Assembly: GCF_000204055.1 (NCBI RefSeq)
Contig: NW_006768796.1
Location: forward strand, 432,084-496,083
DNA from: Melampsora larici-populina 98AG31
Lineage: Eukaryota; Basidiomycota; Pucciniomycetes; Pucciniales; Melampsoraceae
Direction of reading: 5' to 3'
DNA length: 64,000 nucleotides
Made by a program: the position numbers and the translations under genes. Positions 31,740 through 57,731 of this stretch are shown piece by piece (position 1 is the first letter of the stretch; every line of letters starts with the position of its first letter). The notes under the pieces are model-generated. The model saw only the letters and a program-made list of their open reading frames with translations, did no database searches and had not been told where the DNA came from.

Positions 31740-32530
31740 AATCTATCGAAGCTGGAAAACCAAAAAACCATTTGCTTTGTCTGGAAGAACTAAAGCTGAT
31801 CAGATCAAAGCTCATGGCAAGGCAGGTAAGGAAACCTTGGCCTAAAAGCTTTTCATGCGGTCATCCTGTTGCTTTGAGGTGCAAAATTGAAAGCTAAGTC
31901 TTCCCAACCATTCCGACATGTCTCATACCTCATTCACCGCTTCACCTATTAAAGCTGGTCCTTTGTCAATAGCAAATGGAAATGTCTCAGTTGGCCAAAA
32001 CCAGACTGCTGGAACTACAAGTTCCAATGAAAACATTGACATACTCACTGACATTTGTCTCCTTCAATACATTTCTTGTGCTTTTTACGAAGTACGGCAT
32101 ATTCTACTCCACTTTAACAATCAATACTTCAAATCAAACTTGAGGCTGCGTGCCTCCTTAAACCCCCTTCTTTTNNNNNNNNNNNNNNNNNNNNNNNNNN
32201 NNNNNNNNNNNNNNNNNNNNNNNNNNNNNNNNNNNNNNNNNNNNNNNNNNNNNNNNNNNNNNNNNNNNNNNNNNGCCATCTTACACTCGCAGCAAAGTAC
32301 AACATCTTACTTGAGAGTGTATCGTCAAGCGAGGGGAGAATCATCAGCTGACTCCTGGTGGCGTAGAGGTACATCACCTTGTCTTGGGACATTTCATACG
32401 TGACTTTGAAGACTTTGATGCAGAACTGAACCCAGAGGATGAGTTTGTTGATGAAGTAATTGACCTCTATTGTGAAGCTTCTAAGGATCATCACAAGAAT
32501 AAATCAAAGAGATTAAAAACAGAACAAAAA
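31740..32530 (+). CDS. Unknown gene crossing the assembly gap; acidic/basic C-terminus
   Basis: A frame from ATG 31918 (Ser/Thr-rich start) runs into the gap. After the gap an exon from about 32368, following a GTAG acceptor, reads HLVLGHFIRDFEDFDAELNP, then DEFVDEVIDLYCEASKD, and ends with a Lys-rich tail at the TAA near 32530. The two parts may or may not belong to one gene. The stop lies only a few bases from the end of the convergent membrane-protein gene. Confidence 0.35.
32175..32274. other. Assembly gap of 100 N
   Basis: Exactly 100 ambiguous bases, the usual placeholder for a scaffold gap of unknown size. Any frame crossing it is unreliable. Confidence 0.99.
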
Positions 32531-32542: not shown

Positions 32543-32933
32543 TCAAGAAGCACAAGAATATGATATAAAAAGATTTAAATAAACCACATCATTAAATCTG
32601 TAACTCTTCAGGTGCCTGCTAAGTTTTGAATGCACTCCAAACTGCTTCAAAAAAAATTCTAACATAGGGGTAAGAAAATACACCAAGGTGAAAATAGAAG
32701 GAAGATCAGTCAGAGTCTTCAGGAAGGGTATAACAAACCAAAGACTTACTGTACCACCACTCAAATTAATAATAACGACACCAATTAACCATAATGGATT
32801 GATTGGGGATTTACATTGAATTGATAAGTACAATTTACTAAATAGACAAGAAAACATTAGTTCCATGTTTGGTGATAATCGAATGCTTGACTCACAAACT
32901 AAAGAGTTGCCCAAGATGTTGTGTATGTATTAG
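32543..32933 (-). pseudogene. 3' exons of membrane-protein gene split by the giant CACTA element
   Basis: The remainder of an exon (32896-32933) ends at the strong donor GTGAGT. The next exon (32750-32837) encodes the hydrophobic stretch PLWLIGVVIINLSGG and ends at GTAAGT. A last exon (about 32543-32641) ends in TGA after LFISYSCAS. The introns are 58 and about 108 bp. The upstream exons of the same gene lie on the other side of the 19-kb element (52101-52974), and the reading frame matches across the removed insertion. I do not recognise the protein. It has several predicted membrane segments. Confidence 0.6.
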
Positions 32934-33040
32934 CACTACACCAAAGTGCATCTTTACCCAAGGGCCTAGAAAAATATTATGTATGTAGAAAAGTACCCTT
33001 TTCTGCTCCAATATAAGTCCTTGAGTCAAGAAAACTGTAT
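32934..33040 (+). repeat. Left terminal inverted repeat of the CACTA element
   Basis: The 107-bp terminus starts CACTACACC directly after the TAG target copy. The outer 44 bp are identical to the inverted right end and the inner part diverges mildly. Confidence 0.93.
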
Positions 33041-33523
33041 GACCAATTCAAATTCTTGAGCCAATAAAGTGCCGTTTGCACCTGTATAGCAACAAAACTG
33101 CCCCTAACCACGTGAAAATGAAGTGATGATTAGAACACCATTTAATTTTGTTGAATTTGACTTTCTAATCAATTCAATATAAAGAAAAACTAACAGAAAA
33201 AGTTGAGTATATACAGACTTCACATATTTCAATAGATACATTTCGGACAGACTGATAAAAGGCCACAAAGGAAACAAAAATAAATGAGCAGTAATTGAGA
33301 TCAGAAGCTAAATATACACGTATCACAACACAAATACATGTAGAGTACTAGGAAGACAACAAAAACAAGTGAGACATAGTTGATCTTTGCGCTGTTCAAA
33401 GAGAATTCAAGTTTATATGTAATCTGTGACGCGGGTATTGGCAAAGGAAGGTATTCAAAAAGATCAATATATGGCTTCAACTGCGAGCAATATAATTATT
33501 ACACTAACCTAGTATAATCGAGC

Positions 33524-34223
33524 TCAATCTTCAGCTCCAAGGTCAGCTTGAGCTGCTGCCTCTTTGATCTTGCCCTGTCTATCATAAAAGAAAAGATTGT
33601 TGATGAGTATGGGTTGTGATGCTGGATTGGAATCATGTCACTTACTCAATTGTAGGAGACGCCAATTTAGGAACCATGGATGAACTTGTCATCTGCACTG
33701 ACGGTTGACCGAACACGTTAGAGCGTCCTTCACCATCCGCATCATCAAAGGATTCAGAACGAGAGAGAGCTTTCAAGGTGTTGTTGGTGGCGGCAGTAGG
33801 AATTGATTCAAAGGCGTCATAGAAGACCTCATCAGAGGTCACAGAAGACGCTGCGAGATGTTCATCATTGCGACCTTCCAAACGGTTTAATGACCATGAC
33901 CAAGGTTGTCCTAACTCGGCATCCAAGGTGCTCGGCCATATGGCTGTTATCTCATAAAAGCTTCCATTTTCGAGGAGTCGCCAGTGCATCGGGTGGGCAC
34001 CATACCTCGGTAAGTAATCCAGATACTGTGAGCAAGCTCTGAACCGGTGACCAAAGAGGCCACAGTAGAAGCATTGGTCGAGCCCTTGTTTCACTTGGGG
34101 CAACGCCTCGTCTGGTATTTGAAGAGGAGACGCCTCAGACTTTTCACGTTCCAACATCCTGAGTCGAATCCGTTCATTGCGGGTGATAGGTGTGTGATTG
34201 GCGGTGAGACTTTTGGCAGACAT
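33524..34223 (-). CDS. CCHC zinc-knuckle protein (CACTA cargo)
   Basis: The start is the ATG at 34223. The first exon runs to 33646 and is followed by a 67-bp GT-AG intron (33579-33645) and a short last exon ending at the TGA at 33524-33526. The protein is about 210 residues. Around residues 50-64 is a perfect zinc knuckle CFYCGLFGHRFRAC (C-x2-C-x4-H-x4-C), as in retroviral nucleocapsid and many RNA- or ssDNA-binding proteins. It is followed by an aromatic-rich region (AHPMHWRLLENGSFYEI, then PWSWSLNRLEG) and a Ser/Thr/Asp-rich tail. No gag capsid, protease or RT lies next to it, so it is not simply a retrotransposon gag. The frame has no lesion. The role inside the transposon is unknown: nucleic-acid binding is the inference, and a captured host gene is the alternative. 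Confidence 0.7.
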
Positions 34224-34309
34224 GATGGTGTAAGTACGTAGGAGGTATGAGAGTTGGGATTGGTATAAGATGGGAACACTTGATATGATGACCGGTTTGT
34301 TAAGATCAA

Positions 34310-35880
34310 AGGATACGAGTCAAAGGATACAATCTGGTGGGGCAGGAAATCGAGGCTGGTCTAGAATGAATTTTTGATGATTGCCCCCAATGATATCAAG
34401 GGCATGTGGACATGTATCCATCTACTTGATTCTTGTTGACTTGATCAAATTCAGTCAGTCCTTAGGTAAATCCAAGGTCATCGGCTTTGATTGGTGGCTA
34501 CCATTGAGAAAGAAAAGCACCGATTGTATGTGTACATTTAAGTGACACTTGTTGATATGATCCACAACTAAATATATCATTTGTACGTACACAGCGCAGG
34601 ATGATTGGGCAATTCAGTGGACCGATTGAAGGGGTTGTCATGATGGTACAACGTGCTGATTAGGTGGATGGAGAGAACTTTGAGGTGAGAAGTTGATGGA
34701 ACGGGGTCCGATCTCAAAAGGGTTTTCTATACCCGCAAAAAGCAGCAGGATATATGTTGCTATGCGTTCAAGCTCTTGTACGGATAACATCAAATCATAT
34801 ACATTAGCATTCTTCATTTCTATGGAAATTGATTGAGATCCCCAAAAAACATAATCAAAAATGCAAGTCAAACACTTCAGCCGTCTACTGATTCACCCAT
34901 AACGATTATGACAAGATGCCTATGATGAATCATCTCTTTCGAATCACACCTCTTGTAAACAACAAATGGTTGCCATCACCTGCAATTGTTGTCACATTTT
35001 GTCTCAAAGATTGATGCATCAGGCGGTACGATTCCTACCTTCATCTTTCATGCTTGCCTTATATATTGATCAAGCTTTGCTCATCTTTCACCCCCAACAG
35101 TCTTTCAATAGCATCTAATTTGGTGCATAGTTTACAGAGTCGCGCTTTCTTTCAGTTCATGGTCTCGTGGTTATTCCGCTGCTATCATAATCCATTCATA
35201 CGACCTCGTTTCTCTAGCCTATTGATCATCGCTACTTGTCTCTGCAAGACACTACATCTTTTCTCTCAATTATAATCATTCACCACAGCGGTCGCTAATT
35301 CCAATTTTGACTCTACGGTTATTGAGGCCTGTCTACCATCACTACTTACGCCATACCTTTTCAAAAGTCTTTGCTTTATTATATCATTGTACGTGTCTGG
35401 ACACCACCAACAGAAAAACAATGTGTTGAATCAAACCCCGCGATTAACATAAGTTCTTCTTCTATTCAACCCAATAGCTGAACAATCAACTGAACCATGC
35501 TAGATCCTGGCGCACCTGGAGTCACGAAGCAAATGATGCTCGATTGGCTCCGAAAAAATCATCCAAAATCTCCGATTCCATCAACTTTCAACAAGAACCA
35601 GGCCGCAGTCAAAGTACGGGAGAAACAGCCTGAGTGTTGGTGCTATATACCTTCAATATCTTACCCATAAACTTATGCATCAAGCTAACAATTTGATTGT
35701 GTCTTGTACGGTGTGTTGAAAAGTCTTCCCAGACCCAAAAAGTGATAGGCCTGCAACGTTTATACACGGAGATCTCATATTTGGCTCATCTCGAATTGGC
35801 ACAAGTGGTATGCAATTCTTACACACAATTTCACACGGTCCTGACCCATTGAATATACTAACACCCCATATATAAGGTCC
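34310..35880. other. Intergenic inside CACTA; possible upstream exon of the coiled-coil gene
   Basis: The stretch is mostly non-coding with pyrimidine-rich DNA at 34900-35450. At 35498 an ATG opens MLDPGAPGVTKQMMLDWLRK, with a helix-rich, SAP-like look, ending at a possible donor GTACGG near 35612. This may be the first exon of the gene that continues from 35885, but I could not find a splice path that keeps the phase with confidence. Confidence 0.4.
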
Positions 35881-35884
35881 AGAC

Positions 35885-37139
35885 ATGCGGTCTCGACTTC
35901 CTTCATCAAAGGAAACCAAGCCAATTTTGCCTCAGCCCAGTCGTGAGGAAACCAAGCCGAGTTTTCCTCAGCCCAGTACTGTCCCTGAAGCTTCAATGGA
36001 CACCCCAGTGAAACGAGCTGCTTTGCCCACTCCAACCATCGTCCTCCAAAACGCTCTAATATCAGTAGGTGTTTCTTGATTTGCATATTTTTCATCAAAA
36101 TCCTGCGACCAAGTTATATTCAATTCATCAGGTACTGAAGAATTAGCTCGCCGAATGAACAGTGCACAGAAGAATATGAAGGATAAGAAGGTAAGACTGT
36201 TGGCTTTCTTCCTGTTTAAGAGCTCAACTCACGTATCTACCGAGATTTCAGGGCAAGAAAGTTGCATTTTTGCAAGCACCAACTCGAGTGGCATCAAAAT
36301 CAGTAGTTGATGTCATGGAATTGACTAGCCAGCATGATATCAATTTACTTCGCCGTGAAGCTCCAGCAATGAGCCCCTTGGCTCACCAGATTGTCCCCTC
36401 ACCGCTTATTGAACAACGAGATATGCTTGAAGTTAAACCCAAGATTCAACCGACACACGATCTGATTGATCTATCGGATGGCGATTTGCTGTCCGTTGGG
36501 AACTTAAGTTGGTCCAGTTCATGATGTATCACCGTCCAAATCATCACGTTATTGATTTTTTGTGTGTCAGAAATCAATGTGCCTCCACTCAGATTCCCCA
36601 CTTCAAAGGTCAAGTCAGGTGTGGATGTGTTCCATGAGGAACAAGCCCGAGCTGAGAAAGGTGAGTTCTTGAATACTGATGACAGTTGCACTAAACACAT
36701 ACTAATAAGTACATGGTTTGGAACAGTTGATGTACTTGAAGCATCAGTCGCGGAGCTATTGAATAAGATAGAATGTGTCAAGAGGCAGGCCTCAGACAAC
36801 ATGGCTCAGTTGGAAGATGAAAAATGGAAGAGAGGAAAGTTGACCTGTATTCTTGATACTTTGATATATTTCAAATTTTGAGAATTCCAATCTACTTTGA
36901 CAGATCACGAGATCATCGAGAAGAACAAACTTCTCGATGAGCAAGCCGAGTGCATCAAGCACCTAAATAATTCAATCTCAAGCTTGCAAACAAAGGTTGA
37001 CAGCATGTACGCTTGGTACGATAAAGCCAAAGGTGACCTTGAGACTCATGAACTCTGCATTTATCAGCTGATGCGTACTGAAAATGGTGATGATGATGAA
37101 GGTTCAATCCTGGATGATGACCTCGTGGCTAACAAATGA
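35885..37139 (+). CDS. Proline-rich / coiled-coil protein (CACTA cargo)
   Basis: At least six exons chain in frame: 35885-36068, 36132-36190, 36252 to about 36505, 36571-36660, 36727 to about 36845, and 36903-37139, with short GT-AG introns. The N-terminus has a duplicated ETKPxxPQPS motif, then a basic stretch (MKDKKGKKVAF) and an acidic segment (HDLIDLSDGDLL). The last two exons form a likely coiled coil (VLEASVAELLNKIECVKRQA, then CIKHLNNSISSLQTKVDSMY) and end with an acidic tail. No stop or frame break is needed. I do not recognise the family. The coiled coil suggests self-association or scaffold function. The first exon may lie further upstream (about 35498). Confidence 0.55.
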
Positions 37140-37174
37140 TCTTAATGTATGATATAGTGGTATTTAGTCGTGAT

Positions 37175-39221
37175 AGGACCCTGGAAAGCCCCTATATACC
37201 CGCCTAATTGGGTATGTAGGAATTGGCCTTTTTGGGTAAAAATGGTCCTTATGTTCTGTGTAGGAATTCTAAAAATTTGAAAAAAAAAGTCACACAGGAG
37301 CCTTATTTTGTATGTAGGAATATGTCAAAAAGTGTGGAAAAAAAAATTAGGTTTCTTACACATTAGGTAGGAAAGAGGGTTCTCAGGGCCACCAGGCTAC
37401 CCACTTCAATACATAAGGTGAGTAGCAATGATCATCGAGTCACAATGAAACCCGATGTTATTGTGTATAGATACCAATCATGATAGTATTGAGTTCGAAG
37501 CTCAGGTAAGACAATTTTTTACACATTTTTATGTAAAAGGGTGTGGAAAAATGTCATATTATGACAGTTGATGGTCATTGAAATCGAGATGTCTGACAGT
37601 CTGGCATGGGTCAGCAAGAAGGTTGTTTCAACCAGTTTCAACCGAGTCCAAACATTTGAAATGGCCTGAAAGTTGCTGAAACAGCTTGATTCTGCTCGAT
37701 CACAACATTTTTTTTGTTTGATCTTGATAGTTTTCGTTGATATTAGACACAATTACTATATCTCGCGTAGCAAAAGGAAAAGGTAATGAACGAAAGAAAA
37801 AAAACAACCACCAGGATCCTGTGGCTTCTGATCACGCCAATGCAAATGGAGCCACCAAATTGGACCCTCGGACATGTAGTAAATTGGTAGCCATCATGCT
37901 GAAAAACTCTGAGCAGATGGACAAGGCTCTGGATCGCTTACATTGATGGAACATTCATGTAAAGCTTGACCTCAATTGGAGTGCAAAAAATACATCAACA
38001 ACTCTTGACATCGCAACACAAACACTTTATACAAGTGGCAATGTATCAGAAGACAATCCACTTGAAGTAAACAAGTTTGTTGTGGTTATAAAAAACAATG
38101 TATGTCATCCCCTGTTTCAAATATGAAGCTGCCGACTCTGATCATTTAATGTACTCTTGATTCGTTTTAGATGCTTTTTTTGGGTAAGATCTGTGCTCTC
38201 TACATTTACCAGAATGGTAAGCACGAGTGGATCACCAAATCGTCCACTCGATCTAAGCTCTCATATGCATCTACCCAGCTTTACATGTATAAAGGGAATC
38301 CTGGAGCGTGTAGTTTTGAAGAAAACTTTCCAAATCGCCTCATATTCTCGCATCTTGATATAGCAGATATTCACTATGTGTTTCCCCCCACCTCATCAAT
38401 GAATATTACTGAACCCAAGGCTAACACCATATGGATTCCTCAAGCTTATCGTGCTATGTTAAAGGCTATGAGCCAGAAACAGTACATCAAGGCAATTCTC
38501 GAACAACTTGCTGTTGAACACGCTAAAGCTAGAAAAAAATAAGCTATACTTGAATTGTAATATCTAACTTGGTTTTTATTTCTCTCCACCTTATCTAGAG
38601 ATTTGATTTTGTGTTATTTCTTCAAGTTGTTTCGCTTCATCTCTCCCAAATTCAAAAAAATACCAGTCTCTTTAGTCCCTTTTCTGAAACGTTTGACTGC
38701 TCTTTTTCTACTTCTTGATATTGAATTCTCAGACCCTGATCTCCCTCATGTGTAGAGATTCACTTTGATGTTTTTACCTGTTACAGCAGTGGACCAACTG
38801 CAGTGGCTGGCCAGGAACTGGAAACACAGTCCCTCCAGTGGCTGGCCAGGAATTGAATTACTCGTTTTTTTTAAAACTCAACTACATAACACTACATAGC
38901 TATACTACTCACTAGTCTATTTCTCTCTCAACAACTTCAACTCTTGTGATTCTTCTACCAAATTCCCAAAAAAATATACAAGTTTTTCCGGAAAAAAAAT
39001 CAAGATGTCTAATTGCTCTGAAACGCCCAAAAACACAGATTTTGAGGGTCCTTATGCAGATGGAAGGAATATTGGGACCTTTCTCCGAAAAAAAAAATGG
39101 TCCTTTGTCAACAGGTAGGAATCCGAGTTTTTTTTGTGAAAACCGGCGAAATTTGTGTAGGTAGGAGGGGAAAATTTCGGGATTTCCATTAGGAGGGTAT
39201 ATCGGGGCTTTCCAGGGTCCT
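37175..39221 (+). mobile_element. Nested 2,047-bp hAT-like element with its own gene
   Basis: The ends AGGACCCTGGAAAGCCCC are inverted copies, with similarity continuing about 40 bp through TATATACCCGCCTAAT and its inverted equivalent. An 8-bp target duplication GTCGTGAT flanks it (37167-37174 and 39222-39229). Both subterminal regions (37200-37400 and 39050-39180) repeat a GTAGGAA motif. The 8-bp duplication and subterminal repeats fit hAT, although Zisupton/KDZ elements also make 8-bp duplications. It does not encode a recognisable transposase but contains an unrelated small gene (37737-38542). It inserted into the CACTA element after, or together with, its cargo. Confidence 0.85.
37737..38542 (+). 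CDS. Unknown gene inside the nested hAT-like element
   Basis: A basic exon around 37737-37945 (VAKGKGNERKKKNN, then DPRTCSKLVAIMLKNSEQMD) is followed by coding-like sequence 37980-38099 ending FVVVIKNN at a GTATGT donor. After a ~70-bp intron a clean exon from 38170 to the TAA at 38540-38542 reads MLFLGKICALYIYQNGKHEW and later WIPQAYRAMLKAMSQKQY. The joint between the first two parts is unclear because a stop falls near 37944. The C-terminal exon has good coding character. No recognised domain. It could be a truncated transposase C-terminus or an accessory protein. Confidence 0.4.
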
Positions 39222-39229
39222 GTCGTGAT

Positions 39230-40108
39230 CATATATTCAATCAGTTCAATCCTAGATCATTGTTGGACTAGATTATCATCTGTGACTTTGGTGCTCACTG
39301 GTTGGCAACTTTGTATGCGTAGATGAGATCTAGTTTTATTTCCCTCTCATGGGCCTGAACTGTTTTCGACTGCCATGTATTCCTACATAATAATGTGTGG
39401 CAGTTGAAACCATAAACTCAAGAGAATTTTATAAAACTCCAATCATGATATCTAATTTTGTCTTTCAACTTTTTTTGATTGTCAACTTTTCATTCATATT
39501 CTAAAGGAGCTTTCTGAAATGTATTCAAGCAGATTGACCATCAAGTTAATTTGATAAAAAATGTGCTACATTACGAGAATAAATTGTACAGAGTATGTTA
39601 CACATAGGATCTAGCAGCAGGCCACCACACTAGCTAGATGTTCCAGATTGCGAAAATATGATATATCAATGATTGGTATATTAGACCCTTTGATATATCA
39701 TTTTTTCTGTTCACGGACAGCTTGATTACTTTGTGCCCTATGATTACAAAGGATGGCAGAAGCTTCTCGACAGAAGGGTGCCGGCGCAATTTTCAAGACT
39801 CGGCATTGGAAGATCATCCATCTCACCACAAGTATGTACACTTTTCTTATGTCCAAGAAAAGAGAAAAGCTTACAGACACTAACCACGCCCATAAAGACA
39901 AACCTTACACTACAAAAATCATATTCAAAACCTTCCCTCTCAAAAATCAAAGTACCAGGACACCAGATGGCTTGTTAAAACAGAAACAACATATAGTAGT
40001 ATATTTATAGGCCTTTCCAAATGTATAGTCGCCACATAAGAGTCAAGTCAATCATTCAACTGATACTGGAAGAAACATAGCTCTGTAAATAAGTAAGGGC
40101 TCTACAAG
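39230..40108. other. Intergenic inside CACTA
   Basis: A short plus-strand exon-like frame (39753-39828, starting MAEASRQKGAGAIFKTRHWK) ends at a GTATGT donor, but no continuation was found. Nothing else is supported. Confidence 0.4.
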
Positions 40109-41155
40109 CTATTGTTGAGGTGATGAGGGTACTTGAGCTTCTTCTCCATTGTCTTGAGTTGATGGTGTCGGAGGGCTTGGCGTATTTTTCTCCAAAATCT
40201 CCCTGGTTCAAATCAATAGCGTATAAGATTAAAGTTACAAAACAAATATAACGAGAAACATGACTCACTCATGATAATCAGTCAACGCTGAAATGAATCC
40301 GAAATTTTGGATAGTTTGATCAAATGTACATTTTCTGCTTCGTAGTAGTGCCATTGCACTTTTCAGCTGAAGCTCGAGCTCATTGCGCTTGGTTGATGAG
40401 ATTGTAGATTGCCTTAATTTGAGTTGTAACAGCTTGATGGACTGATGGGTTTCTTTGAGATAGGCAAGACTGTCATGGAGGTTATCTTCATGGTGATCTT
40501 TAGCGATGGCAATGGCAGAAACCTTGTCGTCATTCAAGAAGTGGTAGGTTTTGATGACACTGCAAAAATAATGTATTTTTCCAAGGTGAAAAATGATTGA
40601 CATTAATGCACAAAATGATTAATAATGCAGAATTAATGCAGAATTAATGCATTTTTAATCATTTTGTGAAATAAATGTAATCATTTTTCACCTCGGAAAA
40701 ATACATTATATTTGCAGTGTGAAGGTGTTGATGCTTTCGGATGCATGGCGGAATAGCCCTGCCTTAAGGTTTGACAGACCATAAATGTTGAACATTTCCA
40801 TCCGCTCCAGGTCGATGTCCGAGCTGGAGTCGATTGTTTTTGGATACTCTGCGACTAAGCATGATGGGAATCGTAGTTTAGGGACTTGTAAATATTTGGT
40901 GTTGGAGTGAGAAGGTATAGCTAGATTAGAGAAGCGCGGAGCTACCATTTCAACAAAGATTTTACGAAGGAGTTCATGATCATCTTTGGCTTTTTGAGTG
41001 AATATCAAATGAGGATAGAAAGTGGTGATCAATTCTAAAAGTCGGTTGGTAGTAGCTCTACTCAAGAAGGCATCAGGATCAAACTTGCGAGATTTATCGT
41101 TGAGAAAGTCGAGAACATAACTAGGTAAAAAAACACAAGATCTTTTGGAATCCAT
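40109..41155 (-). pseudogene. Unknown cargo gene interrupted by a MITE
   Basis: ATG at 41155 opens a frame with KRSCVFLPSYVLDFLND and FYPHLIFTQKAKDDHELLRK, which runs to ESINTF at the MITE border. Immediately beyond the MITE the same frame continues KTYHFLNDDKVSAIAIAKDH with a coiled-coil-like stretch (SIKLLQLKLRQSTISSTKRN). A 66-bp intron (40203-40268) precedes a short Pro/Ser/Gln-rich last exon ending at the TAG at 40109-40111. Without the 162-bp insert and one TGA copy the protein would be about 270 residues with no other lesion. With it, the frame stops 5 codons into the MITE. The family is not recognised. Helical character in the C-terminal half is the only visible structure. Confidence 0.65.
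40558..40719. mobile_element. 162-bp CACTG-ended MITE in a cargo exon
   Basis: The ends CACTGCAAA and TTTGCAGTG are inverted copies. The inverted repeats extend about 64 bp, so the whole element is nearly palindromic. The 3-bp target duplication TGA flanks it (40555-40557 and 40720-40722). A CACT(G) end plus a 3-bp duplication assigns it to the CACTA superfamily, but its TIR differs from that of the host 19-kb element, so it was mobilised by a different transposase. Confidence 0.92.
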
Positions 41156-42019
41156 GATGTGAGTACTTCAGCGTAGTTGAAAAATCAAGGACACAAGAGA
41201 AACTTCAAGTAGACGTGGCTTTCAAAAATACACACATGGGGATGATTTGAAAATTTGCTCATGATCCCTTGATCCTCCAATCTACTTACGTTTTGCTTGG
41301 GAGCGGGCAAACTCCGTAGTGGCCAATTTGAGATCCTCATTTGAGACATTATAAAACACACCACATGGCAAATCTAATAACTTCAACGTAAGCATAAACA
41401 AAAGAACACACCGACATCACTGATACATCTCACCGGAAATGAATGTGTATTCAAAGTTGGTGGAAGTCTTAATTATATACTTATACATAAATATGTAAAT
41501 CAGAGAAATGGATCTCTTAAATTAAAAATTGGGCGGTAGCTGGAGATAGAGGATGGTTAAAAAAAGGAGCGGGAGGCTTGTAGATATTTATGTGCATAGA
41601 TGAGGTATCACAATATGGCTCTGTATGCTAAAAAAGAGGTGAAAAACACCCTATTTGGAAAAACAAATAGGCGGGAGACAGAAAACGAGAGAGTTGGAAC
41701 CAAGTGTTTTAAGAGCTGGCATGAATTTGTTGTAAGTTCATCCAAAAAAACAATCAGATAAGATATTGAATTTCTTCTTATAAGCATGCAATTGCAGATC
41801 TGAACAATTTGGTTGGTTTACATCCACATGAAAGAGAGAAAAGGGATTCTTTTTAAGCATACAAGAGTAGATCTGAACAATTTTGTTCTTCCAAACCAAA
41901 GACAAAAAGTAAAAATTGAAACAATTTTATATCCATGTTCATGCAACCTCATTGAGTGGTCAGAACCAAATTGGTTTTGTAATACAAAGACAGGATAGAA
42001 TGAAGATTGTACATGAAAC
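41156..42019. other. Intergenic inside CACTA with a short direct repeat
   Basis: The motif AGATCTGAACAATTT with flanking TAAGCAT(G/A)CAA occurs near 41787 and 41870. No gene supported. Confidence 0.45.
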
Positions 42020-42856
42020 TCATTTCGAAGGTATGATGGTGTAGTGAAACCCTGGAATAAGTCTACCCGGCTCCACATCTTCTTCAATTACAAATTTTAT
42101 GTAAAGATCAACACAAACGGTACGATTGAAGGGAGTTAAATGTATGAAAACTTGAGGAGCGTGGCATTGCAAACTAAAACGTAATTGTTCAATAGTTTTT
42201 GACTTGATGCCACCGATGTCCAAGTGCCGGGGCCGGTGAGCAAACTCCTTTGCTTCTGGCACAACTAAATCTGGATCAATGTACGCCTTGTAAAGTAGGT
42301 GCAAACTGTGGCTGTTAACACCGGCAGGGATAGTGAGGCCGGGTTTCTTGCGTTGAATGGCTTCTTTCAAGACACGTTGAGGGGCGGTCAAGGGATCAAA
42401 GTCACCAAGATCGGTTTCTATGGGAGTTGGCGGAGGGGGACTAATGAAAGGACGCAGATGTGGGAGCAGCTCCGTTTCAAATGCATTCACTAATTTATCT
42501 CTAAGGTGGGTGACTCGATGCAAGGTTTTGGGGTTGAAGTGTAAAAGAATACGGTAAATTTGATCTTTGTGGATTTTTGTCTTGGATATCTCGTATTCAT
42601 GGGAAAGGAAGATATGTAGATTGTTGTTTAAACTGTTCACATGATTCCATAACGGATGTAGCCGAAGATTGTCCGGGTTGCTATTTGAGGGGCGGTTTGG
42701 TGCTGGCGGAGGTCCTAGTGAAATCGTCACTTCTTTTTTTGGCATTCCAGCGTAGCTAGATCTCTGTGCCTCCAAGATCATTTGCGAGACAGTTACTGGC
42801 AAGGTTGACTTTTTCTTGCCTTTCGTCATCTCTGGTGGAGTTGACTTGTTAGACAA
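42020..42856 (-). CDS. Intact 278-residue unknown protein (CACTA cargo)
   Basis: A single uninterrupted frame from ATG 42856 to TAA. The N-terminus is basic (MTKGKKKSTLPV), followed by Pro-rich PPPAPNRPSNSNPDN. The central part is helical (LHPLWNHVNSLNNNLHIFLS, then RILLHFNPKTLHRVTHLRDK), and a Pro-rich stretch PPPPTPIETDLGDFDP follows. The C-terminal region is mixed (HLLYKAYIDPDLVVPEAKEF, then VFIHLTPFNRTVCVDLYIKF). I recognise no family. Possible upstream exons exist (a MALTESYNIHPSPPSES start near 43142 and an exon near 42900-42960), so the true start could lie further upstream. It is the most intact cargo gene. Confidence 0.6.
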   Translation of the reverse strand: MSNKSTPPEMTKGKKKSTLPVTVSQMILEAQRSSYAGMPKKEVTISLGPPPAPNRPSNSNPDNLRLHPLWNHVNSLNNNLHIFLSHEYEISKTKIHKDQIYRILLHFNPKTLHRVTHLRDKLVNAFETELLPHLRPFISPPPPTPIETDLGDFDPLTAPQRVLKEAIQRKKPGLTIPAGVNSHSLHLLYKAYIDPDLVVPEAKEFAHRPRHLDIGGIKSKTIEQLRFSLQCHAPQVFIHLTPFNRTVCVDLYIKFVIEEDVEPGRLIPGFHYTIIPSK

Positions 42857-43142
42857 ACATCTACATATACAAATATATAAGGGAGAAACACACCTTGAGT
42901 AAATCTTTGATCCAGAGATGGGATATTTTGGTGTCGCTGTGAGGTAAGACTGGTGATCAAAACTAGAAACTGAGTGAACATCGGTGAGGTCAGAGAAACA
43001 TTTGTACAGATATATGTGACGTGCAGTGAGACTGCGAGATGAGTGAATAACATACCTTAAACAAATCTTTCAAGTTGAGATGTTAAATCTCTACTTTCAC
43101 TGGGAGGTGAGGGATGAATGTTGTACGATTCAGTGAGTGCCA

Positions 43143-44558
43143 TGGGTGGAAGGTGAAGGGAGGTAAAAGGTGAAAAGACTCAGTTATTGTCTTAGAATGA
43201 TACGATTGGAATTTAATGGTATGTTCACTTACAAAGTTTGGCAACCTAAACTAGCAGTGTGTGCAAAAGTGAGTTTGTCTGAACGTTGATCTTCGGCGGA
43301 GATTATGACTAGAAAGTATATGCACAGCAAAACCAAGTGAGGCTTCAGCTTTTCAGAAACAGTAGGCAGAAGGATCATGAATTGATCTGGAAGAAGATGA
43401 TGAAAAGGAGTTGGAGACAGGATCAAGACGCAAAAGGCAAACCTTGAGAGGGTGTAGTGCAGAAAAAGGTTCCGCAAAAGTACTAGAAAAAGGATACTTG
43501 TACTATCAGATATCTGAGGGCATATCTGACTGGCTTGAGCGGGCAACGACGAATAGTAATGAGCAGGCTGTTAGTCCTCAATTCAGGCTAATATATATAT
43601 TCATGTACAGTATGCTGATCAGTATTCTCAAGATGAACCGTGGTAAGTCTTTCTTTGTTTGCTGATCAGTAAACAAAGAAAATGGTTGGGCGATTGGAAA
43701 TGAAATAGTACTCTGTGGTACAAAGGGCCGCTGGTAGTTTGGTCACCAGTGGCTTGAGGTAGAGAGGGTCACACATCGGCACCAGCGCTCATGAAGAACG
43801 TGACGTAGGTGCCGATATATGTTGATGGTCACTGTGAAGGAAGTGGTATCCTGCATATGCAGGAAATTCTTTGTCCTTATCGTGGGGAAGTAATTAAAGT
43901 GTTAAAGCTGGATTCTTTGTTTATGTGGTGAGAGAAGTCCCTCTTTGTTTCGTATCTGAGATGAGAAATTCAACAGTTACTTACTGTTACGTACAGAAGA
44001 AAATGGTTTGATAATATTTTGATTGAGTGACTGATCAATCAAGTCACATTGGACAGTCGGAGTAGCATATGTTGTACGTCAAATGATCAATGTAGCTATG
44101 GATTTTCAGGATTATGTAGTTATGTACTCACAAAGGAACCTTATACCAACCATTGTTGGTATAGATTTGGGGGGTGAGTCGATCAAGTCACATTGAAGAC
44201 CCCGAGTAGCATACTTTGCATGTACAACGTCAGTATCCATGGCCGCAAGGATCCTGGATGAGTGACCAGAACAAAGCTGGACATATGAAAGGGCACAACA
44301 AATTCGGTTGAGGAGAGCACTGGGACATGTTGATCTCATGTGTGTTGTGCCAGACGTGCTTTTATACAACTCACCTTTCTGATCAGTCCCTCAGTAGCTC
44401 ATTTTTTTTTGCATCCTCCAAGTCGATATCTTTTTCTTATTCTAGAGTATTGGAGTGTATTATTTTAATTGTTGAGCAATTTAGATACAGTAATGAAATC
44501 ATTACCCTTAAGATAGATTTTCGACATAAACTGTTTTTGTTTTTCTGATCTCACTGTG
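43143..44558. other. Central CACTA spacer with palindromes and a duplicated segment
   Basis: The spacer separates the minus-strand cargo gene from the plus-strand accessory gene. It contains the perfect palindrome TCCTGCATATGCAGGA (43849-43864) and TATACCAAC-catt-GTTGGTATA (44142-44163). A ~60-bp direct repeat starts GATCAA(TCAA)GTCACATTG near 44033 and 44183. Such motifs could be binding sites for the accessory protein or a divergent promoter. A hydrophobic minus-strand frame at 43229-43546 is of doubtful reality. Confidence 0.45.
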
Positions 44559-47500
44559 ATGTCTTCAAGTCCTGCACCACCTTCTGGTCAAACTCTTCGA
44601 AGCCACCGTCGAGCCTCACAATTACATTCCCAAGTCCGCGAACAATCAGGTCCTCCTTTAGATATCACAGCTCCGTCACTATCAACAGCCGCTGCACCCA
44701 CCAACACTGGCCTGAAGAAGAGGAAAGCCAGCCAAATTACATCAACAGATCCGAATGATGGTGAGCTCTCAAGCTTCTCTTGAATCATCATCACATGAGC
44801 ATTCTCCAAAACTTACTGCTTTGTTCAACACCTAAAAGCCTCAATTGATGCCGCCTCAATCGCCGCCGCCTCTATCGACACCGGTATCCCTGATAACTTA
44901 GGGTTCACCATTGTAAGTAAGACGCCTCGTAATAGGCTACTGGAACTCCTCAATCAGTATGGAAAACCCAAGAGACCTCGTCGATCCGAAAGCGCCCTAC
45001 CAAAAAGAATTCCTTCAGCTCCAGAGGTTAGGTCAAGGCGAAAAACAACCGAGGATCCTCAAGTTGTGCTCTCTCAAATCACAGCAGCAGACGTGGACTT
45101 CAATACATACACTACGTCAGACCTTGCTAAGATGGTGGAAGGAGTTGGCTTGGACGGAAAAAAAATGTCTAGGGAAGCCCTGGTGCGGGCTTTCCAAGGG
45201 CATCGGGAATTGAGTATGTCTTACATTTATGTATCCACGGTCGTACAAAATGCTTACTTCTTGGATAAATCTTTCCCAACTAGTTATCTTACCCAGCGAA
45301 GGCTTTGCTTTCACATTCACTGAGAAAGCGCCGTCACACCAGTCTGCTGTCACCGAAACTCAAGGTTAAATTTCCATTCAATACTCATCAAATGCATTCA
45401 ATTCACTGATGTTTGGGATCCATCTGGTTCAGCTACTCATCCACCTGAGACGTCTGATCCGAAAGAAGACACAATTAGCCAAAGAGCCCGGAAGGGTAAA
45501 GGTAAAGCTACATCTCCGGCGCCTTCTTCATGTTTGGAATCTGGAGTTCAAGAGGTGTTATCAGAGTGTAAGTTCAGGTCAAGTGGTGTTCTTGATGTGA
45601 AATCCATGCACATGCACATTCACTGACGACATCTCATATATCCTAATTTGAAGCTCTCATCTTGCAAGCCGACCCGTCTAGTCAACAACTATCAAGCCCT
45701 TTAGTTGAACCTTGTAAGTAGAGTTCCACCTCTTAGTCATATTAGCCTTACAAAAACACTGACCATGACCGTCCTTCAAAGTTTATCCTTTGCAAGCTGG
45801 GTCATATCGTGAGGTTGGAGCAGCAGGTAAATCAGCAGGACCATGTGAGTAGAACATTTGTCTTCAGTCTGGCCATAGAAGCTCATCATACTTTTCCAGC
45901 CTCCTTGCAAAAAAAACAACTTCAAAGAGTCAAAGCAAACCAAGTGGCAAAAAACGCCCCTCAATTCATGGTAATGAAGCCACACCTACAATCCCCAGTC
46001 TCCAGCATTCTCGCTTGCTTTACCCTCGACCACCTGCTCACCGCAATTCCCAGAAACAAAAATCGTCTCAGTCCGATGATGATTGGTCTCCAGAGAACAA
46101 AGCTACTCACGATCCAAGCGACTTATCTGATACTTCGAATAGGGCAGACAATTCTGATGACCTAAGGTTATCCCCCTCTAGCGCCACAAAGTCCAGAAAA
46201 CGAAAAGCCTCGTCCAAACCCTCAAGACCTCCTGGTCCGGCGAGCCTTCCAACAAGCCCTGTTAACCCTTTGCCTGATTACAATGATATAAGAGGTGCAG
46301 AGGCAGATTCTTGTGATGAACCTGAGAATGAAGAAGGACGACGTAAAAAAACAGTTTGTAAGTTACCTGCTCATATCATTTGGACTTCTACATACCAATA
46401 CTGATGCTTGTGATTGTCGAGTAACACCTTAGTTCGACTAAAACATGCCTTGAATGAAACCAACCAGCCGCTTGACAAAGCAGAAAAACGTTTGAAGGTG
46501 CTAGAAAGTATATGCAGCATGTCCGCTGACGTCAGACAGAGTCCTTCACCTTCCAAAAAGACTCGAGGTGGCAGGTCCTCTGTGAGTTAACTTTCTATCT
46601 TGGGAGTGAAAAACAAGGAGCTGATTCCGCTTTGTAGGCTTGGATGCGAAAGCATATTGACACACTTTAAGGTCAAAGACCCGAGGATTCCAGACTCCCT
46701 CCACCTGCAACTGATGCTGAACAGGCGGCTTGGAATTCAGATATTGATGTTGATATCCTGAACCCTGATACTTCCCACCCCCAACCAGCACCAGCCTCTT
46801 CGAATCCATCCTTCCCGTACCCTTGTGGCCCCGGGCACGTGGAAGCTACCGCTCAACAGCTGGTGGTTATGTGCAGCATGATGCAAGCAGCTAGAGTATC
46901 CAGTTTTCGGCCCAACTTTTCGAAACCACCGACCTCCAAAGAGAACAAGTTCCTTTGGGCTCTTGCCTTTTGGATCTTTGTCAAGCTTGTTGAATGTGGT
47001 GAGTATAGCGGAGTATCCATCGATACTGAAAACATACAGCATCTCAAAAAATCAATGAACACACGGATACGATCACTCACAAAACAGTACGTCCACCCTT
47101 CATCACCACAATGTCACGCTCAACTTCTTGTCAACCCGATATCTATAACCCTCAATCATTCAGGTATCAGCAAGAGGCATGGGCTGATGATAGAAAGAAG
47201 TGTGCTGCCTCTAATGCCCGAAGTTGTGCTTGGCTACGATATGTATGTATTTTTTCTCTTGTGGATTTCCAATCCAAATGACTCATCAGCTCAATCCACA
47301 TTCAAACAGTTGAAGAAGAATCAAGAACGTATTGTACTGCCACATCAATCTTTATGGTCGCTGTCGCCCATCATACAGTCAGCATGTAGTGACAATGGGA
47401 CTGAACACAAAGATTGTCAAGAACTCTTTCCTGACAAACACAAATCGCCTTGTCACATCCAAAAGCTCACTTGGCGTAGTGACGCATTGGAACACATTTT

Positions 47501-47807
47501 CATCATCTTAGACAAGTATAGATCACGAATAGATAATAGTATTCCCAAGCCGAATAAATCATCCAAGAAACAAAACACCAGCCAGGAAAATCAGAATTCA
47601 TCAAACGCAAACAATGGGCGTCCCCCACGACGACGGCTGTGGTGCTCAAATGGTTCAATGACATCGTTACCTCCTCCTCAAGGTCTTCCTGTTGATTGTT
47701 ACTCATCCAAATGGCTCGAAACACTGACAGCAGCAGAAAGGAGTGAGCTTGAAATTGACCCAGTACCAATTCTACCCTCTCTTCTATCTGCTATCGAATC
47801 TCTTTGA
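44559..47807 (+). CDS. TNPA-like accessory gene of the CACTA element (SAP-like domain)
   Basis: The ATG at 44559 starts a chain of about 12 exons with short GT-AG introns, for example 44559-44760, from 44834, from 45293, from 45431 and from 45654. Early on it has an Arg/Ser-rich region, then TTSDLAKMVEGVGLDGKK, resembling a SAP DNA-binding motif. A long Ser/Pro/Lys-rich linker follows (46040-46350), then a conserved-looking region FLWALAFWIFVKLVECG, and the C-terminus ends LPVDCYSSKWLETLTAAE. It is convergent with the transposase 200 bp away, the expected place for the second (TnpA-like, DNA-binding) CACTA gene. A TAA at 46668-46670 lies in frame in one exon. An A8 run near 45910 changes the frame relative to the best splice phase. 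This copy may therefore be defective. Confidence 0.55.
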
Positions 47808-48009
47808 TTCATAACTTCCTTTGGAAAATCTTGTGCCTTAAAACTTCAACGTATGCTGGCCATGCTCGAAAGTATTTCATCCATTTTTTTTCTTTCACTA
47901 TACTTTCAGTACAAATTTATTTCATTTTCAAAGGTCGTATGTGTAATGTATGTTTGAAATATATACATGGAAATGTTACGCGCACATCATTTGAACAAAA
48001 TTAATCTCC
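47808..48009. other. Convergent intergenic spacer
   Basis: About 200 bp separate the stop codons of the two core transposon genes, presumably containing both polyadenylation regions (AATAAA-like and T-rich tracts). Confidence 0.5.
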
Positions 48010-51000
48010 TCACCGGTCCATAGATAATAAGGCAACTGTTGCGACTGTCAAATTCTTGTGAATTGTCCCAGGTTTGTACAGGATCCATGCGCAGTGAGCT
48101 ACAACTTCATCCAATCTAACCAATACACTTTCTGGTTCATCCCACAGTCTCAACTCAACTTGCATATCTGGTCCATTGACTCTTGCAAACGGATTATGTT
48201 GACTGGGGGTGAGTGGGCGGACAGCTTGAACACATAACCAGGAATCGATTATGTTTGTGTTCTTTTCTGGGCTTCGGCTGTGTACAAAGATTGAGTGAAT
48301 GCAACCAAAGCTCATGAGACCCTTTTCAAGTGACTTGAATACAATGAAGCTGTCTTTCCTACTAGCTTTGAAAGTTGCAAAGCTAACATTCAAATGCTTT
48401 ATTTGGTTGTAAAACATCGCGCGACCCGTCACTGGTGCAGATCCCAGAGCGTCTTCTTGAGAGAATGAAGCCCATTTTTCAGGTGACACCCATATACAAT
48501 CTTCGAGGGCTTGGCTGTTTAATCGTTTAATCAAAGACTTCAGAACCTGAGTCGGTAGTGGCTCTAAAGTTGAGTTTGATAATGGCTTTTGATGTTTCTC
48601 CAATGGCTTGTAGAGCGCTTTCAAACCAGGCACATAAGGCAGAAGTACTTCTGGGAGCTTTGAATCTTGAAGGATTGCAGAAAGGTTCCCAGCTCGACAG
48701 AAACTCTTCATAAAGGTGATTTCAAGCTTGCCTAATCAGGTGAAGTATGGTTAATTAGCAAAAACAAGATGTCAGATATGGTATGAATCAAGACTCACCC
48801 AGATGATTGTTGTGACAGGATTTGAGGATACTTCCCATCAACCTTTTGTAGGGAAACGCCCACCAAGAGTGCACTGGTCCAAATTTTTTGAGACAGTCTG
48901 CTAGATGCACAGCCATGTGGTGGTTGCAGGTTGGTTGGCAGTGATCAAAGAGCAAGATAGAGCTTTCAAGGTACTTCTGAATATGATACCGGTACTTTGA
49001 AATGATTTCTGAGGTCATCACTTGCTTGAGTGCAAGGTTGACGAGTGATACCAAGTGACAAAAGTTTTTAAGTAGTGAAGTTTGTACATGATCCTTCCCA
49101 TACCATATTGGAATCAGAATCAAGGGCAATTGAATCGCGAACAAGTTTCTCCACTTGTCGGCTTTGAGCTTGCCAAACAAAGCTTTACTGAGGACAGGGA
49201 TTGCACGTTTAATCCAGCTAGGAATGTAGATTTGTGGCAGTAGTGAATTGATAGTTTTCAACATTGCTGAATCCAAAACGATCTGATTGACAGGCGGAGG
49301 TTCCCACCTACCATTCCAGCCTTCTCCCAAAGGGTTGAAATCATCGTCACTTGAGCCTTCATTCTCTGTAAATGATAAATCATTCAAGGTATCAGCAGGA
49401 ATCTCATGTTCTACTTCAACAGCTGATTTATTGCTTTTCTTTGGGGGTTGTGGATTCGAGTGCTTAGCCAGAAGCTCCATCAGTTCTACTGTACTGATTG
49501 GAGGGGCCTTGTCCTCTTCATCTTCGATTTCTTGCATACACCAAAACCTTCAACAGTGCCACTGCAACAGGCCAAGCAGAAGATTGTGCATCGAATCCAC
49601 TACATGACAATCAATTATGTCCCAATATTCGAGATCTACCAGAAATGAATACCGAACCCCATGTGTTTTAAAGATTTTTACCCGTTCCTTCTTAGTTTTT
49701 GCGTCTCGGGCCTGATGTGCCCATTTCTTATGCTGACAGGCAGTCCGTAAAGGGCAAGAGGATGAGTCAAAGTTTTTAATCCAGTCTTTTGTTATAAGAC
49801 ATATAGAGCAGAAGTAAGTAGCCGTGGCACTTGGAAATCCAAGAGATTGTCGCAAAGCAGGAATATCGGCCACAAAAAGTAGCAAAGCTGCTTCAATGTG
49901 ACGGCCGTTCTTGTGTTTGTATGTTTGTGAAAGGTGCAATCCTGATTCCCACAGAGCTTGAAGCTGAGTTATAATGCAACATAAAACCCAATTAGATTGT
50001 TCAAGGGAGGGTTCGTGCGGCCCAGGAACGACACCAACTCACAACACATTCTCTGGTCGATAACGAATCCGAAAAGGAAGTGTAAGACATATCATCACAA
50101 TAAAAGTGATAGATGCGTGATGACCGCTTTGTTTGTTTCCAAATGGGTTGATACCATCTACATACAAAGCAAAAGATAGATTTCCACTTTTAGCTGTGTA
50201 TTGCTTTCCATCTTTCCCACGGAATTCCTTCCACTTCTTTGATTCATAGATGTCTTGGACTGGTTCATTTTCATTGAATGGCTCGATGGATTCTGCCAAC
50301 GACTCGTCCAGCCATTTCTCCACATGTGGGCGCGAAAGCAAGCGCACTATCCATTCTGAGAGGCTTTGAAAAGTGTACTGTCGGACTGGAACCTCTTTTC
50401 CCCAAGCATATTTCAAGAGTCTTGCTCCGCAGACCTCTTTGGAAAAATTGTGAGTATCCTTGGTTTCAGAAAGTGGGGCGTCCATCTTGTTGTTGGGATC
50501 AGTCAACTCTGTTGGACCACCGGCGATGATAGAAATTTGATGGTTGCAATTGGTTGGTGCGTTATCAAGAGGATACAACGCAAAACACGATGTACAACAG
50601 TTTGCGAATGTCAGAGTAGGGTCAATTTGTAGCCAGCCAAAGATCGTAGATGGTGTCTTAGGGATTTGGCTCAAAAGTTCAACATAATACGGGTGAAGTT
50701 GGGTTGGTAATGAACGTGGCCTGAGTCCGTGTGTCAAAGATAGTTCAATGTTGGTTCTTTGAACATTCAGCAGCCAGATGTGCTCTTTGTTGATGCATGA
50801 CCAAATATGTCCATTAGGGCAGCAGCCAGACTTGCATGGAGGTGTAATGGATTCACGAGTTCCAAACTCCATTCAAAGAATTGATCTTTGAACATTGGAT
50901 ATATCACGCATCAGTACTCTATTGTTTACTTCACCATGAATTAGAAAACAACATACTGCAATCATCGGCTTGATTGCCAACCACCCGTGCGGAGCTTGTT

Positions 51001-51470
51001 GCAAGAGATTCATCGAGTGTGTCTAGGGACTCGTCCGCAGTTTGTATATTGGTTGTAGGTCTTGCTAGGCCATGAGGTGATGTCGGGTGCTGCCTTTGAA
51101 ACACCTCAGGCAAGCTTGATGTTGCTACAACAGATGGTCGATGATGTGGCGCAGCTGAGCTTGGTGAAATCGAGGGTGTTGAAGGGCAACTAGGACCCAA
51201 AACCACTCGCTCAAGACGTGACGAGAGATCATGAATGGGAGAATTAGAACCAGTACTAGAATGATTGAGGGCAGCTTGAGCTCGATTGCGTAGTTCTGCA
51301 CGCTGATATGCCTCGAAGGCTTCTGGTCTGAGCTCGACACCGTTACATTTTTGGCCATTGGCATCTATATATTGGCCTGAGATGCAGTCGTGTACTTGGC
51401 ATGTGCAGACGCGCCTGCGGTATTGTCGACCCTTATTCTTTGGGGACAGCATTCCAGGGGGTGTTGAATT
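48010..51470 (-). pseudogene. CACTA/Plavaka Tnp2-type transposase with two in-frame TGA codons
   Basis: The N-terminal exon (about 50960-51452) has the Cys cluster CTCQVHDCISGQYIDANGQK. The core (50872 downward) has NCCTSCFALYP, YVDGINPFGNKQSGHHAS, then ALLLFVADIPALRQSLGF, CSICLITKDW and the family signature VVDSMHNLLLGL. The region to 48788 ends with HHMAVHLADCLKKFGPV and WWAFPYKRLMG. After a short intron a C-terminal part (48711-48010) follows. This is the Tnp2/Plavaka branch of the CACTA/EnSpm superfamily, which cuts and pastes elements with CACT(A/G) ends. A TGA at 50039-50041 (after RPENVL) and another at 49550-49552 (after LLQWHC) interrupt an otherwise continuous frame. An upstream in-frame TGA also precedes the ATG at 50872. 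The copy is probably inactive or needs a helper. Confidence 0.85.
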
Positions 51471-51993
51471 GGTACTAGAGTGATGAGGCCTACAACGAAC
51501 AGAGCAACTGATTGAGCTTAGAAAATGAACAGTGTATTAGTTAAGCAGCCTATTTGGCTTTGAACTCTTTAATTATATAACACCGGCATGTGGCGAAGCA
51601 TACGAGTCCCTAAAAAGCATCATTCTGAGTTGACCAATTGGGGATTCTTCATAGTCAGTCCAAGCAGCTTCAAACCTTGTGCATTGGTTAGTACGCGTCA
51701 GAGGAAAGGTACACTGAGATTGGCTGCTGCATCTCGAACTACTTCTGTTCAACGTCTGAGCTTAGCACTGGATCTTAGGCACTACGGAACGTTCCAATAA
51801 GATGAAACTGTTCTTGATTCTGAACTTTTCTTCCAAACAGCAACACAGGGTATAGAAAGAATTGTTTTCTACGACCCTTTTTCTACAAAGGACCACACAC
51901 AACCGATGTCTACTTTCTGATATTCAAACTGGCATGGTAGTGCGTCAACTGTTATTTGCTATAAGATGCATCACTCATATATATGAATCATCA
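51471..51993. other. Subterminal region of the CACTA element
   Basis: It lies between the transposase start and the right TIR, presumably holding its promoter and subterminal binding sites. Small frames such as 51588-51800 have no support. Confidence 0.4.
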
Positions 51994-52100
51994 ATACAGT
52001 TTTCTATACTCAAGCACTTATATTAGAGAAGAAAAGGGTACTTTTCTACACATACGATATTTTTCTAGGCCCTTGGGTAAAGATGCACTTTGGTGTAGTG
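51994..52100 (-). repeat. Right terminal inverted repeat of the CACTA element
   Basis: Inverted copy of the left end, finishing GGTGTAGTG directly before the TAG target copy at 52101-52103. Confidence 0.93.
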
Positions 52101-52974
52101 TAGGATTGTGTATCCAATAAGATCAAACAATTTTCTATATAAAATGTCAATTTAGTTTGCATATTCTTATGGATTTATAAAGAGTGATCTTACGGAATTC
52201 CTATATCATCTCCACTCCTAGCCCATCCTCCAAGTGCTATTCCAAACCCAACAATCAAATAGAAAAATGCTGTAATAAAATCCATTTCCAAAGATGGAGC
52301 TATAATGGAAGCTTTTGAGCACGGATCAAAATTCACATCCATGTGTTGAATCAACATGATGACTGTCCATGGGCCAAAGAATTGACCAACAATGTAACAG
52401 CAACCTAACAAAGGAGGAAATCGTGAAGTAGACTGTGATCAAGGTGCAGAATCATCAGTCAGTTCAGTGAATAATCAAAGTAAATCATTTCAACCAATGT
52501 GGACTCATCATTTTGTATATAGTGACACACAGACTTATATGACAATTCAGTTTTAACATCGGAACAATAAGATAACAAAGAAGACAAAACATATTCTCCT
52601 GAGAGGATCCAACAAGGAATCCTGGTGAAGGTATGTATAAATGTCAGTATGTGTATTTTGAGGACAATAAGGAAGATATTATGCTACATACCTGCATTCA
52701 CTCCACAGGCAACCAAGAAGTGTATGCTAAGCATTGCACATAATAATTTCTCAGCAATGATGCAAGTTAACTTGCTGTACCAAGGACTTGAAAAACACAA
52801 GTGCTGGATGGGGCTTGAAACACACAAGTGCTGGATGTCTGACTGATTGTGAAGTACTTGTAGTTCAATTGTATTGATGGGTATCTTGAAATATTCTTCT
52901 TGTAACGCCTCACTTAAATCACCAGTTGAATTGTCTTGAAAAATCAAATTATTATTGCACAATACAGTGGTCAT
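52101..52974 (-). pseudogene. 5' exons of membrane-protein gene split by the giant CACTA element
   Basis: The ATG at 52974 starts an exon to 52692, followed by an intron to about 52405 that may hide another exon. The exon at 52194-52404 encodes GCCYIVGQFFGPWTVIMLIQ and FITAFFYLIVGFGIALGGWA, both strongly hydrophobic. After a 59-bp intron (52135-52193) an exon opens at 52134 and is cut by the transposon after 52101. Its other half is at 32896-32933. Joined without the element the exon reads through in frame to a GTGAGT donor. The protein is a predicted multi-pass membrane protein. Its family is not recognised. Confidence 0.6.
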
Positions 52975-56390: not shown

Positions 56391-56489
56391 TTAAAAAGCT
56401 GGATGGGATTCTCAGTTTGGACAAGGATGGCTAGCAGGAAAAACTTCAATGTTCTGGCACTACAAATTTATTAAACTTGTGAAACCAGC

Positions 56490-57242: not shown

Positions 57243-57731
57243 CCACGGACCCACGGACCCGGTTCCTGAACCAGGTTTTGGCTTGGTTGTAGAACCAATT
57301 TTTGTGAGTGGTGAAGAACGGGTATAGAACGGCACCTTCCAAACCAGGGCAGAACCGGGGCATATGGTTTGGTTCTGAGACCGTGTTACAGTGGAGGAAA
57401 ATCTGGGTTGGTCCGCTTTTCTGGTCAGCTTGCAGGTGTCAATTTTTGATTGCTCGGCCCATATTTGCTCACAGGCTCATGATTACGTGGTGAATAATGT
57501 GAAACTAAGTATTGTATTGACACAAAATTGCAACATTAACAAATATAAAAGATACAAATTAAATCTGCAGGTAGAAGTGAAAAAGTGATGAATGTAATAC
57601 CAGATACAAAACATAGATGCTTGCAATAAGAACTTGAAAGATAAAAAAATTACTGTTTATACAAACCTCAATAATGTGTATAACAGATACAAAATATAGG
57701 TGCTTGCTATAAGAATAAAAATTATACAATC

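Follow-up and report, generated by a model that had tools for sequence, protein, structure and literature searches.

The window, a 64,000-nucleotide stretch of the genome of Melampsora larici-populina 98AG31, harbors a CACTA element of 19,167 bp (32934-52100). Very probably, this element is a decayed member of a large EnSpm/CACTA lineage that has a conserved set of four genes, the transposase gene T and three further genes, A, B, and C, with a gene D present in some members. A, B, and C are regarded as genes of the lineage because they accompany one and the same group of transposases at dozens of loci and also lie inside other pairs of terminal inverted repeats (TIRs). In the window element only the optional D and E, a copia-like open reading frame, are cargo-like. 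The interest lies in the four-gene CACTA lineage with its permuted gene order, of which the window copy is a dead member.

Ends, target site and transposase

The left TIR of 107 bp (32934-33040, + strand) and the right TIR (51994-52100, - strand) were delimited by alignment of both ends. Over the 107 aligned positions the outermost 44 are identical, the identity in the genome search is 92%, and both tips read CACTACACC, giving the CACTA..TAGTG termini that are typical of EnSpm/CACTA elements. The 3-bp target duplication of such elements is present as a TAG on the left (32931-32933) and a matching TAG on the right (52101-52103). The complete ends that the earlier note had described, with this TIR length, identical tips, TAG on both sides, and an overall length of 19,167 bp, are thus confirmed. 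Repeated terminal and subterminal motifs, another characteristic of EnSpm/CACTA, are represented by AGAAAA/TTTTCT, a putative binding motif. It occurs at positions 35, 54, 66, and 96 of the left TIR; the two 300-bp termini of the window element contain six and seven occurrences, compared with 0.53 per 300 bp inside. The other six ends read contain it three to six times, and all eight ends, in which three TIR families are represented, have it at positions 35 and 53/54.

Searches of the organism's own genome covered 98.3 Mb in 243 contigs (designated here by handles such as C41), and as the best candidates were scored, all match totals are lower bounds. The left TIR was found at at least five places, two of which are the element's own ends. 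Outside the element its two longest matches, on C113 and C176, reach 81-82% identity; among the matches listed there is no close copy of the window TIR.

The element inserted into a repeated segment, of which C41 and C91 carry paralogous empty sites that lack a duplication at the junction. Joined at one TAG, the flanks align with C41:411689-412491 along their full 800 bases (94% identity; a single TAG at the junction) and with C91:206395-206880 along bases 301-800 (also 94%), where the junction is one CAG. The earlier note had proposed to look for an empty allele with a single TAG in the other haplotype; the empty site with a single TAG that was found is the paralogous copy on C41. Longer flank pieces are 91-94% identical to C41 and 94-97% identical to C91. 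The repeated segment to which the left flank belongs is also present on C9. These empty paralogous targets bound the age of the insertion from above only: it took place after the split of the target copies, which differ at about 3-6% of positions in the pieces compared.

The transposase gene T (48010-51536, - strand) is Tnp2/Plavaka-like, as judged from sub-cut-off Pfam scores and alignment with relatives, and is non-functional as it stands. Its pieces score 6.1e-6 against Pfam Plavaka (26.1 bits, with a cut-off of 26.3), as well as 7.6e-5 and 2.6e-4 against Transposase_21, under the curated cut-off. They align along a relative on C11 that has a frame of 712 aa and, at 50.7 bits, scores above the cut-off for Transposase_21. 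This points to a DDE transposase of the Tnp2 (Transposase_21)/Plavaka type, in agreement with the enzyme proposed by the earlier note. Two in-frame stops interrupt T, at 50039-50041 and 49550-49552, and six of the eight relatives examined are open over 710-906 aa where the window T has these stops. Furthermore, 12 of the 42 D/E columns that are invariant in the six open relatives differ in the window T. One of these 12 is also kept in the distant C11 relative and is, by its position, probably the third catalytic residue. The window copy thus has neither an open frame nor a full set of intact catalytic residues; it is a dead copy, and its membership in EnSpm/CACTA is unaffected.

TIR similarity is no clock for cut-and-paste elements. 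The recent movement that the earlier note had read from the near-identical tips is not borne out, given the stops in T, the insertion of a miniature inverted-repeat transposable element (MITE) in D, the presence of a nested transposon, and the lack of a close TIR copy among the matches listed. Recent autonomous movement is unsupported because T has two in-frame stops; movement in trans, or breakage of T after the last jump, is possible.

Interior genes and their association with the transposase

From left to right, the window element reads E- A+ nested element D- B- C+ T-. Several multi-exon interior genes, as the earlier note had stated, are indeed present, their exons taken from predicted models. 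A (35497-37139, + strand) is a multi-exon gene of 384 aa in such a model, with a 40-aa N-terminal motif that is conserved across 10 sequences. B (42020-42829, - strand) is a single-exon gene of about 269 aa that belongs to an orphan family. Over the searched 273 residues it is identical to part of MELLADRAFT_65217 of the same strain, the database name of which begins "Secreted pr". C (44560-47807, + strand) is a multi-exon gene with predicted start and exons; its C-terminal half is conserved, and its N-terminal stretch looks SAP-like in our reading, without Pfam support. D (40265-41155, - strand; predicted extent) is a MITE-interrupted gene of an orphan family and is optional in the lineage. 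An open frame, of 246-279 aa, is present in each of the eight D relatives read.

Comparison of the window with its relative on C176 gave dN/dS ratios of 0.215 for B (264 codons), 0.226 for the core of C (142 codons), and 0.197 for a C-terminal piece of A (78 codons), which shows purifying selection on the compared parts of all three genes. Pfam scans of A-D gave nothing that passed the cut-off, and the searches yielded no Pfam or solved-structure match that would indicate DNA binding by A, B, or C. Nor did the structure searches made for B return a recognizable fold, and the fold models are weak (pLDDT 72 and pTM 0.35 for B, 44 for the C core).

The genome contains at least 143 match rows for T, at least 120 for C, at least 87 for B, at least 73 for A, and at least 58 for D. 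After deduplication, 138 T, 83 B, 75 C, 55 A, and 56 D matches were clustered with a 13-kb linkage. A, B, C, and T occur together in 40 of the resulting 177 clusters, 19 of these 40 also with D, while T stands alone in 60 and D in 15 clusters. The association depends on the rank of the T match, which stands in for phylogeny. At the best 40 T matches, B lies within 13 kb in all 40 and C in 37, so that both are present at 37/40. For ranks 41-84 the corresponding counts are 27/44 for B and 25/44 for C, falling to 3/59 and 4/59 for ranks 85-143, the boundary between ranks 84 and 85 being placed at a score drop. Both B and C are found within 13 kb of 56 of the 84 best T rows. By comparison, random placement (n = 1000), on contigs bearing matches only and on each up to its last match, gave at most 2 of 84 T rows with both. 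Among the weaker T rows 2/59 have both genes, and these two are second pieces of loci that are already among the best 84. Against the four-gene lineage, B or C is absent within 13 kb at 28 of the best 84 rows, and the agreement between match ranks is only moderate (rho of 0.34 for T-B, 0.56 for T-C, 0.32 for B-C, and -0.13 for T-D).

The arrangement of the genes is also recurrent. The eight best T matches all read B- C+ T-, and among T ranks 9-84 with B within 13 kb, B is on the same strand and at most 3 kb upstream of T in 48/59. In the diverged relative on C176, which ends at the contig end before T is reached, A, B, and C are colinear with the window, and the B protein is 62% identical. Of the 56 deduplicated D places, 31 have a T of ranks 1-84 no more than 13 kb away. 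Roughly 11 kb of the interior had been described in the earlier note as not accounted for by transposition functions; a lack of relation to the element is not borne out, as A, B, and C accompany this transposase elsewhere in the genome.

Relatives bounded by TIRs were represented by 16 hand-picked pairs of opposed TIR hits on one contig, the pair of the window element included and unpaired hits excluded. Twelve of them enclose A, B, C, and T in a single copy each when split exon matches are merged (C is usually in two match pieces per pair, and the window A in eight). The remaining four hold A and B, A only, C only, and none of the genes, respectively. The earlier note had suggested looking for other copies with the same cargo set; the A-B-C-T quartet lies inside 11 TIR pairs other than that of the window element, and a D match is found in none of these 11. 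An element at C8:1324354-1336859 has a TGA duplication and the order T- B- A+ C+, and one at C1:1889447-1902518 has a TCA duplication and the order A+ C+ T- B-. Their TIRs each find paired copies round other clusters, and exchanging the partner ends gave no TIR match. The 3-bp duplications were examined at three of the 16 pairs (the window element, C8, and C1) and are present at all three. Three gene orders exist among the quartet-bearing pairs, and the order follows the TIR type. Within a TIR family order and strand are constant, with the exception of an inverted B in an element on C3. Rotation converts the order A C T B into T B A C. In the stretches examined, TIRs were found neither for a relative on C12 nor for a T locus on C11 that lacks A, B, and C. 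The TIRs of three further elements (C77:226456-240034, C8:338185-351833, and C11:1126882-1139357) score identically against the C1 query, which suggests one family whose copies are near-identical and more recent; the last of the three has no C and T matches.

A non-autonomous transposon of 2,047 bp (37175-39221) with the TIR AGGACCCTGGAAAGCCCC is nested between A and D and is flanked by the 8-bp duplication GTCGTGAT on its left (37167-37174) and right (39222-39229). Among its best 14 other near-complete copies, all 99-100% identical, 11 are flanked by perfect 8-bp duplications. The MITE inside D (40558-40719) is 162 bp long, with CACTG..CAGTG ends and a TGA duplication; it is palindromic and has relatives on C30, C2, and C36. 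E (33642-34319, - strand) is an ORF of 225 aa that encodes a CCHC zinc knuckle, scored by Pfam at 0.088 and so under the cut-off. At least 64 places match it, among them the part of a 1,627-aa copia polyprotein on C38 in which the knuckle lies. The distance from the TIR to A in the window exceeds that in the C176 relative by about 1.2 kb, and a search for terminal repeats around E gave nothing convincing. E as a core gene of the lineage was considered and rejected, as this gene, used as a control, is near a T of ranks 1-84 at only 1 of 64 places, where 1.4 would be expected by chance; the window's own E is more than 13 kb from T and hence outside this count. Two further features lie in the window to the right of the element. 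A retroelement fragment at 56475-57266 (Integrase_H2C2, 8.5e-17) is presumably of the Gypsy type, and parts of this stretch are matched by the left flank of the C176 relative. A 300-aa ORF at 61443-62342 has no Pfam match at 0.01 and resembles, we assume, another fungal transposase-associated protein.

Competing explanations and a possible mechanism

The earlier note had compared the element in concept with Starships. In such a reading, host genes captured by a CACTA element would be mobilized as adaptive cargo. Some of the observations fit such a carrier: D is optional (31/56 places near T of ranks 1-84, alone in 15/177 clusters, and 0/11 in the other quartet pairs), E is not common to the lineage, and the annotation treats B as an ordinary protein. 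However, A, B, and C often accompany one group of transposases, the zinc knuckle of E is copia-like, and Pfam scans recognized no gene with a host-adaptive function among A-E. For A, B, and C this explanation is already largely refuted, their reading as cargo being rejected by the co-localization with T and by the contents of the TIR pairs, which leaves only D and E as cargo-like; as an account of the whole element it is improbable. It is even less probable that A, B, and C belong to other transposons that were repeatedly nested beside T, the quartet arising by chance or at a hotspot. A truly nested element does exist in the window copy, and subgroups differ in gene order, but within a TIR family strand and order are constant apart from the inverted B on C3. 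The position of B at most 3 kb upstream of T on the same strand in 48/59 rows, the single occurrence of each of A, B, C, and T in 12/16 TIR pairs, and the colinearity of A, B, and C between the window and its diverged relative on C176 likewise speak against repeated nesting.

Least credible of all, and hardly to be entertained, is that the apparent 19-kb unit consists of two unrelated elements joined by misassembly, the case that the earlier note had named as its refutation. A scaffold gap of 100 N (32175-32274) does lie 660 bp beyond the left end, but it is the sole gap, and the element itself is N-free throughout, with an identical TAG at both borders. The flanks run into each other at the two paralogous empty sites on C41 and C91, which argues against a misassembly, as does the colinear relative on C176.

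For the conserved four-gene lineage, a mechanism can be proposed. Cutting and joining at the CACTA ends would have been carried out by T itself or by an intact relative's transposase, as expected from the family to which T belongs. A and C may act as TnpA-like DNA-binding helpers on the AGAAAA/TTTTCT motifs of the TIRs, a role suggested by their position, the 40-aa motif of A, the SAP-like stretch of C, and the TIR motif itself. Such helpers might assemble or de-silence the element, and B could be a further subunit of the complex. In the course of its history T was broken, and other transposons landed inside the element. It is tentatively suggested, with rather less than even confidence, that this rust lineage needs four separately encoded, co-inherited proteins for transposition or escape from silencing, and that their order was rearranged more than once, including the rotations A C T B and T B A C, as though a joined or tandem intermediate had been given new element ends.

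One or two proteins are generally enough for a cut-and-paste transposon. A lineage in which three extra orphan genes are kept under selection in dozens of diverged members offers a test of the roles of auxiliary proteins, the candidate roles for a DDE transposase being end recognition, complex assembly, and anti-silencing. The data further suggest that a number of annotated orphan genes in this rust, including the "Secreted pr" entry, are transposon genes; transposon genes that are annotated as host genes could contaminate counts of gene families and secretomes.

Comparison with known systems

Starships are, like the window element, large fungal elements that carry several genes. Their enzyme is a tyrosine recombinase, and to our knowledge they have no TIRs, whereas the window element has a DDE-type transposase, TIRs, and lineage genes instead of cargo. 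Pfam scans of selected interior ORFs of the window element found no recombinase.

CACTA elements are confined to the Pucciniales among the Pucciniomycotina covered by one survey, as far as its account goes (PMC12210899, BMC Genomics 2025). The EnSpm families of the Pucciniales, as described in the passages of Kojima 2025 (PMC12730594) drawn on here, have CAC..GTG termini, 3-bp duplications, and a transposase similar to Plavaka, all of which they share with the window element along with the rust host. Some of those families carry a TET/JBP gene; the window element does not, and TET/JBP as its accessory was rejected, since no match lies in or near it and a profile search of the genome gave two weak sub-cut-off matches, both elsewhere. 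These (C4:2506454-2506693 and C6:742570-742803) are about 11 and about 7 kb from T-like loci of ranks above 84, the one on C4 also about 4 kb from a D match, which is in keeping with TET-bearing EnSpm elements elsewhere in this genome. PlavakaA and PlavakaB differ from the window element in their termini, TGT..ACA or CATCA..TGATG in the same text (PMC12730594) as opposed to CACTA..TAGTG. The A-B-C set is not described in those passages, and no description of it was found in the literature at the level of titles and abstract openings, which is not proof of its absence from print.

In plants, Tam1 measures 17 kb and the soybean Tgmt* 20.5 kb in the sections of PMC2613891 drawn on here, so that the length of the window element is by itself unremarkable. 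According to the same sections, plant En/Spm, Tam1, and Tgmt* share with the window element CACTA ends, a 3-bp duplication, and Tnp2, and they also encode a second, DNA-binding protein, TNPA, by alternative splicing of one large unit (PMC2613891). As related there and in passages of PMC1636069, maize Spm requires both TNPA and TNPD, and TNPA acts on methylated promoters. The TRC-type CACTA elements of animals and fungi resemble the window element in their Transposase_21 domain and TIRs, and have a second, fast-evolving protein that is presumed to be TNPA-like in the portions of DeMarco 2006 (PMC1636069) consulted. Their extra proteins are ascribed there (PMC1636069) to alternative splicing, whereas the window lineage has three separate conserved genes beside T. 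Compared with the plant elements, the window element, as inferred from ORFs and not from transcripts, has four separately coded genes that lie on both strands and in a permuted order.
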